Part shown: positions 16,856-25,054 of the stretch, one piece after another
How the letters are laid out: every line of letters starts with the position of its first letter
How positions within the stretch are numbered: position 1 is the stretch's first letter
From: Balnearium lithotrophicum
Lineage (GTDB): Bacteria; Aquificota; Aquificia; Desulfurobacteriales; Desulfurobacteriaceae
Direction of reading: 5' to 3'
DNA length: 64,000 bases
Assembly: GCF_900182585.1 (NCBI RefSeq)
Contig: NZ_FXTM01000006.1
Span: forward strand, 1-64,000
Notes under the pieces: generated by a model
What the model saw: only the letters and a program-made list of their open reading frames with translations
Told to the model about the DNA's origin: nothing
Database searches by the model: none
Made by a program: the position numbers and the translations under genes

Positions 16856-18143
16856 AATTGTTGGAGGAAAATTAGTAGGGAAAAATAGACCTATTTCAGG
16901 TTTTCACTTTGACTCGAGAGAGGTAAAAGAAGGAAACGTTTTTATTCCAATTAAGGGAAGGAGGGACGGCCATAAATTCACTGAGGATGCTTTTAAAAGG
17001 GGAGCTTCGGGAGTTTTGTTCTCTCAAAACGTAGAGATTCCACCCCAAAAGTTCGGTATTTTTGTCCCGGATACATTCAAAGCTTTTAAAGAGATTGCCC
17101 TCTACAGGAGAAGGAAATTTTCCGGAACAGTTGTAGGAATTACTGGAAGTGTAGGAAAAACTACAACCAAGGAATTAGTATCAAAAGTGCTCTTAGAAGG
17201 TGGAGTTAGAACCTATAGAAATGAGAGAAGTTTTAACAATGAACTTGGGGTAACCTATACACTATCCAACCTTCCTCCAAATACCGATATTTACGTCCAG
17301 GAAATTGGTACAAATTCACCGGGAGAGGTTTCTCAAATAAGGGAGTTTGTGAGTCCTGAAGTGGGAATAGTCACTTCTGTGGAAAGGGCTCATATGGAAA
17401 AATTTAAAGACTTTGAAGAGCTTATAGAGGAAAAATTCTCAATAACAGAAGGTTTAAGATTTTCAATAGTTCCTTACAAGTATCGAGACTTTTCAAAGTC
17501 CTTTGAGACGTTAACGTTTGGAAGAAAAGGGGATGTTAAACTCATTTCCTTTAACACCTCTTCAGAAGGAACAGATTTTGAGATTTCAGTATCAGGGAAA
17601 AGAGTAAAGCTCTTCTCCCCAGTTCCCGGCTTTTCCGTTGTTAATTCCTCAATGGTCTGTGGAGCTCTCCTCCTAATATTGGGACTTCCCCTCAATCTGT
17701 TAGATGCAGTTTCCTCCTTTTCTCCTCCCTATCTCCGTATGGAAATTTGTAGATTTCAAGAAGGAGTTCTCATCAACGACTCATACAATGCAAATCCTGC
17801 ATCCTTCAGAAATGCACTTGAAGTTCTCTCCAAGTTCCCAGGTAAAAAGGTTGTAATTGCTGGAGACATGTTGGAGTTGGGGGAGATTTCAAGGGAGGAG
17901 CACAAAAAGTTGGGAAGGCTTATGAACGAATTGGGCATCTCTGAAGTTATTGCCTACGGAGAGGAAGTGGAGGAAATGGTAAAAGAATTTAAAGGAGAAT
18001 TCTATCACTTTAAAGTGAAAGAGGAACTGTTAAATTTTGTATCAAAGTACCGATTTGAAGGGAAGGCTGTTCTCATAAAGGGTTCTCGAGCCAACAGGTT
18101 AGAAGAGGTTGCAGAAATAGTGAAAGAGAGGTTCGGAAGGTGA
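16833..18143 (+). CDS. murF: UDP-MurNAc-tripeptide--D-Ala-D-Ala ligase
   Basis: A 436-residue Mur ligase completing the pentapeptide. GITGSVGKTTTKE is the ATP loop, and NDSYNANPAS is the family-specific motif in the C-terminal half. I start it at the ATG at 16833, which has GAGGAG four bases upstream, not at the TTG codons at 16818/16821. It overlaps murE by 23 bases and ddl by four. Confidence 0.96.
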   Translation: MDAKKLSEIVGGKLVGKNRPISGFHFDSREVKEGNVFIPIKGRRDGHKFTEDAFKRGASGVLFSQNVEIPPQKFGIFVPDTFKAFKEIALYRRRKFSGTVVGITGSVGKTTTKELVSKVLLEGGVRTYRNERSFNNELGVTYTLSNLPPNTDIYVQEIGTNSPGEVSQIREFVSPEVGIVTSVERAHMEKFKDFEELIEEKFSITEGLRFSIVPYKYRDFSKSFETLTFGRKGDVKLISFNTSSEGTDFEISVSGKRVKLFSPVPGFSVVNSSMVCGALLLILGLPLNLLDAVSSFSPPYLRMEICRFQEGVLINDSYNANPASFRNALEVLSKFPGKKVVIAGDMLELGEISREEHKKLGRLMNELGISEVIAYGEEVEEMVKEFKGEFYHFKVKEELLNFVSKYRFEGKAVLIKGSRANRLEEVAEIVKERFGR

Positions 18144-19036
18144 AAGTTTTAGTTGTCTACGGAGGAGAGTCCCCGGAAGCTGAGGTTTCAAGGAAGAGTG
18201 CAAGAAGCGTTATCGAATCATTAAAGAGACTTGGGCATGAGGTAATTCCGGTTGAACTTTCCAGAAACTTTCCAGAAATGGTAAAGGAGATTGAGCCTGA
18301 TGTAGTCTTCATTTCTCTTCACGGTTCTCCAGGTGAAGATGGAACGGTTCAGGGACTACTTGAAATAATGAAGGTTCCGTACACTGGTTCTGGAGTAATT
18401 CCAAGCGCTGTCTCAATAGATAAGGATTTAACAAAGAGGGTTTTGAAGAGTTATGGAATTCCTGTTCCCTCGGGGATAACACTCTTTAAAGGAGATGAAA
18501 TTCCTAAAAATTTGGAATTCCCCTGTATTGTAAAACCTGCGAGGGCAGGCTCAAGTGTGGGGATTTTTTTGGTTAAGGGGGAAGGGGAGCTCCCAAAAGC
18601 CCTTAAGGAGGCCTTCTCCTACGACTCCAAGGTTTTAATCGAAGAGTACCTACAAGGTAGGGAAGTTACAGTTGCAGTCTTAAGGGGAAGAGCTCTTCCG
18701 CCAGTGGAAATAGTTCCGGCAGGGGAATTTTACGACTACGAATCCAAATACGTGAGTAGTTCTACGGAGTACAGGATTCCAGCTTCACTTCCAAAAAGGT
18801 TGGAGGAGAGACTTAAAAAGCTATCTGAAAGAGTCTACAAGGTCTTAGAGTGTAGAGGTGCAATTAGGGTTGACTTTAAGTTGGATAATTTCAATTCACC
18901 TTACGTTCTTGAAGTCAATACAATTCCAGGACTTACTGAGAGAAGTCTTCTTCCCAAGTCAGCACAGGTTTCAGGATACACTTTTGACAGATTGGTGGAG
19001 GAAATATTAAGGGACGCAGAAAAAGGCTCTTTTTAA
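18140..19036 (+). CDS. ddl: D-alanine--D-alanine ligase
   Basis: A 298-residue ATP-grasp enzyme making the D-Ala-D-Ala used by MurF. HGSPGEDGTVQGLLE and the metal-binding ending EVNTIPGLTERSLLP are typical. The GTG start overlaps the murF stop (GTGA). Its final codons overlap the proposed start of ftsQ by 31 bases, keeping the cell-wall and divisome genes in one transcript. Confidence 0.97.
   Translation: MKVLVVYGGESPEAEVSRKSARSVIESLKRLGHEVIPVELSRNFPEMVKEIEPDVVFISLHGSPGEDGTVQGLLEIMKVPYTGSGVIPSAVSIDKDLTKRVLKSYGIPVPSGITLFKGDEIPKNLEFPCIVKPARAGSSVGIFLVKGEGELPKALKEAFSYDSKVLIEEYLQGREVTVAVLRGRALPPVEIVPAGEFYDYESKYVSSSTEYRIPASLPKRLEERLKKLSERVYKVLECRGAIRVDFKLDNFNSPYVLEVNTIPGLTERSLLPKSAQVSGYTFDRLVEEILRDAEKGSF
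18997..19001 (+). promoter_or_regulatory. Shine-Dalgarno site pointing to an ATT start of ftsQ
   Basis: GGAGG inside the ddl coding end lies four bases before ATT at 19006. The same spacing (four to five bases) is seen for well-supported ATG and TTG starts in this window, for example at 15122, 49452 and 50222. It supports initiation at an ATT codon, giving FtsQ its membrane anchor. Confidence 0.5.
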
Positions 19037-19734
19037 TTGCAGTTCTTCTGTTTTTATTCTTTGGAGTAGTGATTTATGGGCTGTTAAATTCTCCCTCAAA
19101 GTTGGAAAATGTTAAGTTTGTGGTTGTAAAGGAGACGGGTCCTTGGAGAGGAAAAATTGTTCAAAGTATTCTCCCCTTCTTAAAGCCAGGACTGGACCTA
19201 AATCCTGATAACTTGAGGACTCTAAAGGAGAGGATAAACTCCCTTCCCTGGGTCGAACACTGCAAATTGGATATAAGGGGGGGAACGTTAGAGGTAAAAA
19301 TCTGGGAAGAACCTACTGCGTTTTCTCTAATTTTCAGGGGAAAATTGTACTTAATAGGTAGAAATGGATTTGTTCTCGAGGAAAGGCCATTAAAGGTTAG
19401 TCAAGGAGAAGTTTTCTCATACAGGGGTAAGCTATCACCGTTTAAGCTGGAAAACGGATTCTTAAAGCTTAGAAATTTTGTTAGAATTGAAGTCAACCTC
19501 GTAAAGGACAAGATAAAAGAGCTTAACTTGGAAAGTAAAGAAGTTCAAATAGTCCTGATGGATGTTGGTGTCCTAATACTGCTTAAAGCTCCTTCATGTA
19601 TCGTTTATTTGAGTTTTAACGATAATAGTTGGAAGAGGTTTGCTTCCATCTTGAAGGAGGGATTTCTCAAACCGGGAATTTACGATTTCAGGTATTCAGG
19701 TCTTTTAGTTTTACAGGGGAGGAAAGGAAGATGA
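19006..19734 (+). CDS. ftsQ: Cell-division protein FtsQ, probable ATT start
   Basis: A divisome protein with an N-terminal membrane anchor, a POTRA domain (PSKLENVKFV to about residue 100) and a beta domain. From the only canonical start downstream (GTG 19069) the anchor would be lost. The frame upstream encodes RRKRLFLIAVLLFLFFGVV, a perfect basic-then-hydrophobic anchor, but holds no ATG, GTG or TTG back to the stop at 18985. ATT at 19006 has GGAGG four bases before it, giving 242 residues. Identity rests on position between ddl and ftsA plus the fold layout, because FtsQ sequences are poorly conserved. It overlaps ftsA by four bases. Confidence 0.8.
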   Translation: MKGRRKRLFLIAVLLFLFFGVVIYGLLNSPSKLENVKFVVVKETGPWRGKIVQSILPFLKPGLDLNPDNLRTLKERINSLPWVEHCKLDIRGGTLEVKIWEEPTAFSLIFRGKLYLIGRNGFVLEERPLKVSQGEVFSYRGKLSPFKLENGFLKLRNFVRIEVNLVKDKIKELNLESKEVQIVLMDVGVLILLKAPSCIVYLSFNDNSWKRFASILKEGFLKPGIYDFRYSGLLVLQGRKGR

Positions 19735-20963
19735 CACCTTATAAAAATCTAACCATTGACTTGGGAACAAGCTCTATAAGGGTTGTTTTATCTATATACA
19801 GGAACAATAAGAGGGAATTTATCGTAAAGAAGGCTCCCTCAAGGGGAATAAAAGGTGGAAATATAATAAATCCTGCATCAGCAAAAGAGTCTTTAAGTAT
19901 CGTACTCAATAAACTGAAGCTGGATTCCCCGACCGTCCTTCCCAATAGTGCCTGTGTTATAGTCCCTGGGAACTTTATTGTTAACTTTCAGGTGGAATCA
20001 ACAATTGAGTTTCCTGGAATAACAACTATTACACACAACGAAGTTAACGAAGTAAAAAACAAAGCACAGAAGGAGCTCTTTCGAGGAAATCTCTACTTAA
20101 AGAACTACTATGAAATAATTCACGTAATTCCCCAGGAGTTCATCGTTGACAAAATTGACGGAATACAAAATCCAATAGGAAGAAGCGGACAAAAACTAAC
20201 AATGAGGGCAATAGTAGTCCTTGGAGGTAAAAACCACCTTAAAACAGTAGAGAGCTTACTTAAAGATGTAAATCTATCTGTTGAGAGGTTTATAGCCCAA
20301 CCTGTTGCTGCTTTTTACGGTATAAGGGACCCTAACTTTTACTACAACAATAACCTCATCGTTTATTTAGGTGCCGGAAATACGGAGTTTCTGTACTTTA
20401 GAGAGGATAAACCGGTACTTATCAAACACCTTCCTACGGGAAGTCAGGACATTTTAGAGTTTCTAATAAAGAGTTTGAAGGTAAATAGGAAGGAAGCCGA
20501 AAGGCTCTTTTTTGAATACGGTAGTGCCTATGCTTTGAAGTTTAGCAAGGAGGAGCTTATTGATGTCAACTATGCCAGCCGTACGGTAAAAATTCCAAGA
20601 ATTGTCATTCCTGCATTGATTCAGAAAAAACTACAGGGAATTTTCAAGGACATTAAATCAACCTTAGAGAACGAGGACCCGAGCTATGTAAAAAATTTAA
20701 ACACGGTCTTCCTAACCGGTGGCTTGTCCAACTTGAGGGACATCGAGGTTCTATCCCAAAGGATTTTCAAAGCTCCAACTGTCATCTCTAAACCGGACAC
20801 AGTCAGTGATTCTTCACTCTCACCCGTTGTAGGAGTTTCAAACTATTTATCCTCTCTGGAAAATAGGGAAAAGCTTACCGACATTAAAGAGGATATTAGA
20901 AAAACCTACGGAAAGGTAGGGTGGTTTCAGGGAATTATTAGATTTTTAATGGACTTAATATAG
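19731..20963 (+). CDS. ftsA: Cell-division protein FtsA
   Basis: A 410-residue actin-like ATPase that tethers FtsZ to the membrane. The nucleotide-binding IDLGTSSIRVV opens the protein, and the C-terminus ends in an amphipathic helix (WFQGIIRFLMDLI) suited to membrane binding. The ATG at 19731 overlaps the ftsQ stop (ATGA) and follows GGAGG; a longer open frame upstream overlaps ftsQ and is not used. ftsZ follows after nine bases. Confidence 0.94.
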   Translation: MTPYKNLTIDLGTSSIRVVLSIYRNNKREFIVKKAPSRGIKGGNIINPASAKESLSIVLNKLKLDSPTVLPNSACVIVPGNFIVNFQVESTIEFPGITTITHNEVNEVKNKAQKELFRGNLYLKNYYEIIHVIPQEFIVDKIDGIQNPIGRSGQKLTMRAIVVLGGKNHLKTVESLLKDVNLSVERFIAQPVAAFYGIRDPNFYYNNNLIVYLGAGNTEFLYFREDKPVLIKHLPTGSQDILEFLIKSLKVNRKEAERLFFEYGSAYALKFSKEELIDVNYASRTVKIPRIVIPALIQKKLQGIFKDIKSTLENEDPSYVKNLNTVFLTGGLSNLRDIEVLSQRIFKAPTVISKPDTVSDSSLSPVVGVSNYLSSLENREKLTDIKEDIRKTYGKVGWFQGIIRFLMDLI

Positions 20964-22611: not shown

Positions 22612-24564
22612 ATGAAAGCTAATATTCCCGATGAACTTAAGGAGATTTTAGAAGAGTTTTTAATAGAGGCTGAGGAAATTCTGGAAAATTTAGACCAAGA
22701 TTTAGTAGAGTTAGAGTCGAATCCTAACGATAAAGAGCTCTTAAACAAAATATTTAGAGGTATGCATACCCTTAAAGGGGGAGCAGGCTTTTTAAATCTT
22801 ACTCCCATTGTGGAGATAGCTCATAGAATCGAGGACATTTTCAATAAGCTAAGAAACGAAGAAATGGTATTAACACCGGAGATTATGGACGTTATTCTTG
22901 AGGGAATAGATAAATTAAAGGAATCCCTCACTATGTTAAAGGAAGACGGGGAGCTCCCCGATTTAGAGGAAATAGAAGACCTTTTATCTAAGCTCGATTC
23001 TATTCTCAAGGGAGAAGAAAAACAAGAAAAAAAGGAAGGAAATGTTAACTCTTCTAAAGAAGGAGAGGAAATAGAATTTGTTGATGGTATTTCAGAAAAA
23101 CTCAAGGAACTTATTTTGAAGTATCCAGATAAAGATTTGGCTGGAATTCTAGATGAAATAATACTCATGCCTCCTGACGAAAGGCCTATGGACGTTATTC
23201 CAGAAATAGAGAAATTAATTGAGGAAGGAAAGGACGTTAAGGACATAATAGTTAAAAAGAAAAAAGAAGAAAAGCCCGTATTAGAACAGGAAAGTCAAGT
23301 AAAAAAAGAAGTGAGTAAGAAAGAGGAAAGAAAAACAACCAAGAAAGAAAAAAAGAGTACAAAAGTAAGTTCCGAAACAATAAGAGTTGATGTTGAAAGG
23401 GTTGAGAACTTAATGAACTTAGTCGGTGAGATTGTCCTTGATAGGAATAGAATCTTGAAAGTAACAGCCGATGTTGAAAGGGACTGTAGAAGCGAGACAG
23501 TAGAGAAGTTAGTGGAAGCCGTGACGAGTCTTGACAGGACAGTGAGCGACCTTCAGGTCGCAGTTATGAAACTTAGAATGCAACCAATAAAGAAGATTTT
23601 CAGCAAGTTCCCTCGTTTGGTTAGAGACCTTGCAAGAAAACTAAATAAAAAGGTTCAACTTGTTATCGAAGGTGAAGATACAGAACTTGACCGTTCAATT
23701 CTTGATAAACTTGAAGACCCTCTAATTCACCTTATTAGGAACTCTTTAGACCACGGAATTGAACCTCCGGAAGAGAGGATTGCAAAGGGAAAACCGGAGG
23801 TAGGCACAATAAGGCTTTTTGCCTATCATGAGGGAGACCACATCGTTGTTGGAATTGAAGATGATGGAAGGGGAATAGACCCTGAGAAAATTAAGAAGAA
23901 AGCTGTTGAAAGGGGACTAATTACCCCTGAACAGGCAGCTCAGATGAGCGATAAGGAAGCTTACGAGCTTATATTCCTTCCTGGATTTTCCACTGCTGAG
24001 AAAGTTAGCGATGTTTCAGGACGTGGTGTTGGAATGGATGTTGTTGCAAGTACGATACATTCTCTAAGAGGTTCAATAGAGATTGATAGTAAGTTAGAAA
24101 AAGGAACTAGAATAGTCCTAAAACTACCATTAACTGTAGCTATCATAAGAACCTTAATGCTTGGTTGTAAAGGACAGGTCTATGCCGTTCCTCTCCACTC
24201 CGTTGTGGAAATAGTAAGGTACAACGAAAACTTGGTAAAGGACGTAGGAAATTTCAGAAGCTTTATGCTGCGTGATGAGGTTTTACCACTCTTCTCCTTA
24301 AACGAGTTACTTGAAGTTCCTGACGATGATGAAAAGTCGTTCGTTGCAATTGTAAAAGTAGCAGAGAAATTAATAGCCATTTCAATATCAAAGCTTTTTG
24401 GAGAGGAAGAAATAGTTATCAAGTCCCTCGGAGAGCTCTTAGCCGATATTCCAGGAATTGCAGGTGCTACGATAGCTGGAGATGGAAAGGTTGTTCTCAT
24501 ACTGGACCTAAACTCTCTCGTTTCAGATTACAAGGCCAAGCTTTTAGGAGTAAAGAATGGCTGA
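22612..24564 (+). CDS. cheA: Chemotaxis histidine kinase CheA
   Basis: A 650-residue cytoplasmic kinase. Order: Hpt domain with phospho-acceptor His52 (MHTLKGGAGF), a charged linker, a small unassigned helical segment (about 148-215), a Lys/Glu-rich linker (to about 258), dimerisation helices, the HATPase domain (RNSLDHGIEPPEER, DDGRGI, GRGVGMDVV) and a CheW-like P5 domain at the C-terminus. The middle segment does not look like a typical CheY-binding P2 domain. It phosphorylates CheY. It overlaps cheW by eight bases. Confidence 0.97.
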   Translation: MKANIPDELKEILEEFLIEAEEILENLDQDLVELESNPNDKELLNKIFRGMHTLKGGAGFLNLTPIVEIAHRIEDIFNKLRNEEMVLTPEIMDVILEGIDKLKESLTMLKEDGELPDLEEIEDLLSKLDSILKGEEKQEKKEGNVNSSKEGEEIEFVDGISEKLKELILKYPDKDLAGILDEIILMPPDERPMDVIPEIEKLIEEGKDVKDIIVKKKKEEKPVLEQESQVKKEVSKKEERKTTKKEKKSTKVSSETIRVDVERVENLMNLVGEIVLDRNRILKVTADVERDCRSETVEKLVEAVTSLDRTVSDLQVAVMKLRMQPIKKIFSKFPRLVRDLARKLNKKVQLVIEGEDTELDRSILDKLEDPLIHLIRNSLDHGIEPPEERIAKGKPEVGTIRLFAYHEGDHIVVGIEDDGRGIDPEKIKKKAVERGLITPEQAAQMSDKEAYELIFLPGFSTAEKVSDVSGRGVGMDVVASTIHSLRGSIEIDSKLEKGTRIVLKLPLTVAIIRTLMLGCKGQVYAVPLHSVVEIVRYNENLVKDVGNFRSFMLRDEVLPLFSLNELLEVPDDDEKSFVAIVKVAEKLIAISISKLFGEEEIVIKSLGELLADIPGIAGATIAGDGKVVLILDLNSLVSDYKAKLLGVKNG

Positions 24565-25054
24565 AGATAAAGAGTTGAAAATATTGGGAGTAGAGGAATT
24601 AATAGGAGAAACTCATGAAAAGGAAGTCCAAGTAATTGCTTTTAAATTGAACAAGGAATTGGTGGGCGTACCTATCGAACAGATTATTGAAATTACGATT
24701 AATAGAGATATAACTCCAGTTCCTAAAGCTCCTTCCTTCGTTATAGGCGTTATGAATTTAAGGGGTAAGATTGTTCCAGTTATTAATTTAAAGGAGCACC
24801 TGCGGATTCCTTATCAAATACCTGAAAACATATATGAGAATAACAAAATAGTTATTTTGGATACTCCAAAGGGAGAAGTTGGAGTTGTCGTTGATGAAAT
24901 TATAGGGTCTATTAAGTTTCCAGAAGGAGATTTACTTCCAGAACCTATAGGAACAATAGGTATAGATGTTAAATTTATTACCGGTGTAGTTCAACTTGAA
25001 GACGAGCTATTAATAATACTTAACGTTGAATCTATTTTTAGTGAGGAGGGATAG
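24557..25054 (+). CDS. cheW: Chemotaxis coupling protein CheW
   Basis: A 165-residue SH3-like adaptor linking receptors to CheA. Typical segments are VGVPIEQIIEI, PVPKAPSFVIGVMNLRGKI and the closing LLIILNVE. Residues 1-20 are a short charged extension. The following MCP gene begins directly after its stop codon. Confidence 0.95.
   Translation: MAEDKELKILGVEELIGETHEKEVQVIAFKLNKELVGVPIEQIIEITINRDITPVPKAPSFVIGVMNLRGKIVPVINLKEHLRIPYQIPENIYENNKIVILDTPKGEVGVVVDEIIGSIKFPEGDLLPEPIGTIGIDVKFITGVVQLEDELLIILNVESIFSEEG

Follow-up and report, generated by a model that had tools for sequence, protein, structure and literature searches.

The ddl-ftsQ junction and the ftsQ reading frame

The stretch of DNA that was analysed (the window: 64,000 nucleotides from Balnearium lithotrophicum, contig NZ_FXTM01000006.1) contains part of a dcw cluster, with murE, murF, ddl, ftsQ, ftsA and ftsZ in this order; ddl, ftsA and ftsZ were assigned by profile, murE and murF were read from their translations, and the features placed below between ddl and ftsA lie on the plus strand. 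The D-alanine--D-alanine ligase gene ddl occupies 18140..19036 (TIGR01205, E=7e-98, above the cut-off), and its protein runs for eight residues, RDAEKGSF, beyond a conserved EEIL before it stops at TAA 19034-19036. At the other end of ftsQ, ftsA (19732..20963, from ATG 19732) matches TIGR01174 at E=4e-44, below the curated cut-off, and carries the SHS2_FTSA and FtsA Pfam domains. Shortly 3' of ftsZ, two genes look by their translations like chemotaxis genes, the one at 22612-24564 coding for a CheA-like histidine kinase and that at 24557-25054 for a CheW-like protein. Four-base overlaps of the NTGA type join murF to ddl (GTGA 18140-18143) and ftsQ to ftsA (ATGA 19732-19735), and since both of these are kept, the junction between ddl and ftsQ is the odd one of this stretch of the cluster: there is no NTGA overlap, and ddl reads through to the TAA ending at 19036.

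The reading frame of ftsQ opens at 18988, directly after a TGA at 18985-18987, and begins CAG ATT GGT GGA GGA AAT ATT AAG GGA CGC AGA AAA AGG CTC, where the second ATT is that at 19006, continuing through TTT TTA ATT (19036) GCA to GTA GTG (19069). By direct reading there is no ATG, GTG or TTG in frame from 18988 to 19068, so that the first canonical start is GTG 19069..19071, which yields 221 amino acids. The proposed start, ATT 19006..19008, would give a gene of 242 codons plus a TGA stop (19006..19734), this TGA overlapping the ATG of ftsA as ATGA, and, counted from 19006, ftsQ overlaps ddl by 31 bases. Upstream of it lies a Shine-Dalgarno-like GGAGGA (18997..19002). Two further ATT codons stand in the frame: one at 18991, the other ATT 5' of the basic residues described below, which has no Shine-Dalgarno sequence, and one at 19036..19038, absent from the earlier note, which has one base in common with the ddl stop TAA. 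Folding of the RNA from 18960 to 19080 gave no more structure than expected by chance (z = +1.07).

Two statements of the earlier note, that the frame lacks a canonical start before GTG 19069 and that GGAGG (18997-19001) lies four bases 5' of ATT 19006, are thus borne out by direct reading. This spacing is acceptable but slightly short, since in the window's own well-matched genes the distance is mostly 4-7 with a mode of 5-6, and it is 4 in three other genes. Both elements also have another explanation, because they fall within the conserved VEEIL-coding end of ddl: GGAGGA encodes part of Val-Glu-Glu, and bases 19004-19009 are ATA TTA in the ddl frame, the Ile-Leu of the conserved end, so that ATT 19006-19008, one frame over, spans parts of the Ile codon and of the conserved Leu codon. 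Neither GGAGG nor ATT need therefore have arisen for ftsQ. Set against the 21 relatives described below, none of which shares it, the unusual part of this junction is the absence of any canonical start and not the presence of a Shine-Dalgarno sequence beside an ATT.

FtsQ and its start in the family

Where it has been studied, FtsQ spans the membrane once and is essential. Position in the dcw cluster, an N-terminal helix and weak profile matches identify the product of the gene that separates ddl from ftsA as FtsQ. A single full-length match was found in its own genome and a single match in each of 21 relatives. The membrane helix, FLIAVLLFLFFGVVIYGLL (19030..19086), has a mean Kyte-Doolittle value of 2.9 over 19 residues, with 1.9-3.1 in the relatives, and is preceded by a basic cytoplasmic tail, RRKR (19015..19026); AlphaFold, given the single FtsQ sequence, assigns high local confidence to a helix at residues 2-28 in a model that is otherwise poor (mean pLDDT 50.6). 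Both the basic tail and this single N-terminal helix are present only if translation begins 5' of 19015, and the prediction that a start at GTG 19069 would remove the membrane helix proved correct, the 221-residue form having no N-terminal helix.

Profiles recognise this protein poorly. The window's FtsQ scores E=0.17 against POTRA_1, a model that matches 3 of the 22 family members, the best at 1.4e-6, and a profile built from the family found two matches only in the PDB, FtsQ 2vh2 (E=0.025) and 8hhf_Q (E=0.063), both weak. FtsQ_DivIB_C (PF03799) has no match in the Balnearium genome, a miss that is weak evidence because, of 14 control genomes, just 5 gave a hit to the same model. Across the phylum, the family profile has matches in 24 of 136 genomes, with almost none outside the Desulfurobacteriaceae-type family. 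Profile-based annotation of FtsQ will often fail, given the miss of FtsQ_DivIB_C in this genome, the mostly missing POTRA_1 and the narrow reach of the family profile.

The junction was compared in 22 genomes of the family, the Balnearium genome and 21 relatives (loci L002-L022, oriented alike), the nearest of which are about 45% identical in FtsQ. Beyond these, a scan of genome contigs with FtsQ by itself gave no match, and one with FtsZ yielded sequences of other phyla only, among them no named close relative. Every one of the 21 relatives has a canonical ftsQ start overlapping the ddl TGA by four bases (ATGA in 7, GTGA in 6, TTGA in 8), none lacks a canonical start, and their ddl genes end at a TGA that in most cases comes 2 residues after the conserved Leu and never more than 6. 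The first residue of FtsQ lies in most of them 3-5 codons downstream of the position of ATT 19006, and in an ungapped comparison with L022, a locus from another genus of the family, the NTGA lost in Balnearium falls on CGCA 19015-19018, within the stretch that encodes RRKR. L022 carries an identical GAGGAAATATTAA and hence the same in-frame ATT, with its own ATG start nine bases further downstream. In L003, which belongs to the same genus as the window, a GTG start stands level with ATT 19006. At least two Lys or Arg residues precede the helix within the first 9 residues of FtsQ in all 21 relatives.

These comparisons bear on what had been proposed from the single sequence. The ATT at 19006 stands as the best start by elimination, but as an unusual start it is seen in one genome only and is not conserved, the start being canonical in 21 of 21 relatives. 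It had also been reasoned that an ATG at the same place in relatives would point to a sequencing error, and canonical starts do occur at the junction in all of them, although they mostly lie 3-5 codons 3' of the ATT, with only the GTG of L003 aligned to it; since the starts lie mostly downstream, an ancestral start appears to have been lost, rather than one ATG mis-called. The idea that ATT is a conserved regulatory feature of ftsQ was rejected (0 of 21 relatives), and the suggestion that a weak start was adapted to hold FtsQ below FtsA and FtsZ finds no support in a feature of one genome which 21 relatives manage without.

Weighing the candidate starts

The best reading, to which we give a probability of roughly 60%, is that FtsQ is translated from the AUU at 19006 by weak initiation. 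It is favoured because this is the sole codon of a known initiator type 5' of the basic residues with a suitable Shine-Dalgarno spacing. The combination of Shine-Dalgarno sequence and ATT is not by itself strong evidence, since both are ddl coding sequence and L022 carries a passenger ATT 5' of its real ATG. The conserved basic residues before the helix would exclude the starts at 19036 and 19069, if these residues matter here.

An error in base calling or assembly, or a very recent point mutation, is an unlikely alternative, in which the true codon at 19006 would be ATG (T19008G), forming an ATGA over a ddl TGA. When 324 distinct single edits (substitutions, insertions and deletions) were tried across 18988-19036, T19008G, which hits the ATT itself, was the sole one that restored both an NTGA overlap and a start in the ftsQ frame; in addition, the genome is a draft of 49 contigs and the start of L003 aligns at 19006. 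However, the edit would end ddl at LVEEI, before the Leu (TTA) that is matched in 19 of the 21 relatives, the two exceptions being L005 and L006 with EEMIL in place of EEIL; 97% of the window lies in open frames, and no gene is obviously broken; and simple counting gives a chance of about two in three that some one-substitution option would turn up among roughly 8 candidate positions, which makes an error of this kind possible but not favoured. A canonical start at CGCA 19015-19018, by comparison, would need three substitutions.

The remaining explanations leave the sequence as it is and place the beginning of FtsQ elsewhere. Ribosomes finishing ddl at TAA 19036 might re-initiate at the ATT of 19036, where TAATT forms a one-base stop/start overlap with AAAAAGG about 10 bases 5', and coupling by termination-reinitiation at overlapping stops and starts is widespread (PMC6728339), but the spacing is long, there is no good Shine-Dalgarno sequence, and the resulting FtsQ would keep its helix without the basic tail that all 21 relatives have in the form of at least two Lys or Arg, so that we hold this to be improbable. 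Still less probable is a shortened protein from GTG 19069, which has in its favour that it is the first canonical start codon in frame, yet has only a four-base, badly spaced GGAG upstream and would lose the N-terminal helix kept by all relatives. Hardly credible, finally, is a Ddl-FtsQ fusion produced by a -1 slip on TTTTTAA (19030..19036) at the end of ddl; the relative frames of the two genes fit and a TTT in the P site can re-pair one base back, but TTTTTAA is not a standard slippery heptamer, ddl and ftsQ are separate reading frames with NTGA overlaps in the relatives, and the fusion would attach a soluble ligase to FtsQ at its cytoplasmic end.

Returning to initiation at AUU 19006, the history would then be that the NTGA overlap between ddl and ftsQ, which is the state of this junction in all 21 relatives and presumably ancestral, was lost in the Balnearium lineage, and that an AUU which was probably already there, as a by-product of the ddl end beside a Shine-Dalgarno-like GGAGG, took over. 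Initiator tRNA pairing with this AUU would produce the 242-residue FtsQ with the tail MKGRRKR and the membrane anchor intact, presumably at reduced efficiency and, we infer, with some sensitivity to IF3. On this view the ATT would replace a lost start in this lineage alone and would not be a conserved regulatory feature.

Unusual starts in the clade and elsewhere

Starts of this type are not foreign to the family. The aligned start of infC is ATT in 9, ATC in 6 and ATA in 4 of the genomes with a match (19 of 19; loci L103-L121), always at one conserved position behind a strong Shine-Dalgarno sequence, with ATT in the Balnearium genome itself (L121), and in 14 of the 19 no in-frame NTG lies 5' of it. 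The codon varies between genera and within some genera also. By comparison with infC, then, the clade appears to use ATT, ATC and ATA as starts, and infC resembles ftsQ in having an ATH codon adjoining a strong Shine-Dalgarno sequence, whereas the unusual start is conserved in infC and seen in one genome only in ftsQ. Such conservation is typical of regulatory cases like infC, though an AUU start does not strictly require it.

In Escherichia coli the unusual start of infC is said, in work by Sacerdot from 1996, to serve the autoregulation of IF3, and Binns and Masters reportedly described in 2002 an AUU start that limits the expression of the chromosomal gene pcnB; the start of pcnB was established by experiment, whereas that of ftsQ is proposed from sequence. 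To our knowledge, proven AUU starts on bacterial chromosomes are few, and we know of none for a core division gene. A further parallel is citZ of Staphylococcus aureus, a housekeeping gene with an AUA start restricted to the NCTC 8325 lineage and a reporter expression of about 10% of that from AUG; in poor medium, AUU and AUA starts in S. aureus reach about 10% of the expression obtained with AUG (PMC13009471). Like ftsQ, it combines a housekeeping function with a lineage-restricted non-canonical start, but it is another gene with another codon (AUA), and its start was measured by reporter.

How such a start might be tolerated, or even put to use, can be considered from what is known in E. coli, where FtsQ is scarce (147 copies against 3335 of FtsZ; PMC4462998), so that a weak ftsQ start could be tolerated. 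As excess IF3 reduces initiation at non-canonical codons (PMC2268962), FtsQ in Balnearium might respond to IF3. The further step, that the supply of FtsQ would be set by AUU initiation and hence by the level of IF3, with a translation factor tuning a limiting division protein, we think rather unlikely.

For annotation, the junction is a trap, since an automatic call would probably pick GTG 19069 and thereby drop the membrane anchor of FtsQ. Among the 22 genomes of the family, ftsQ without a canonical start is an oddity of a single, heat-loving species, with AUU as its probable start. If this is true, it would mean that an essential gene can lose its start codon and be rescued by a nearby AUU that owes its existence solely to the coding of the gene upstream.
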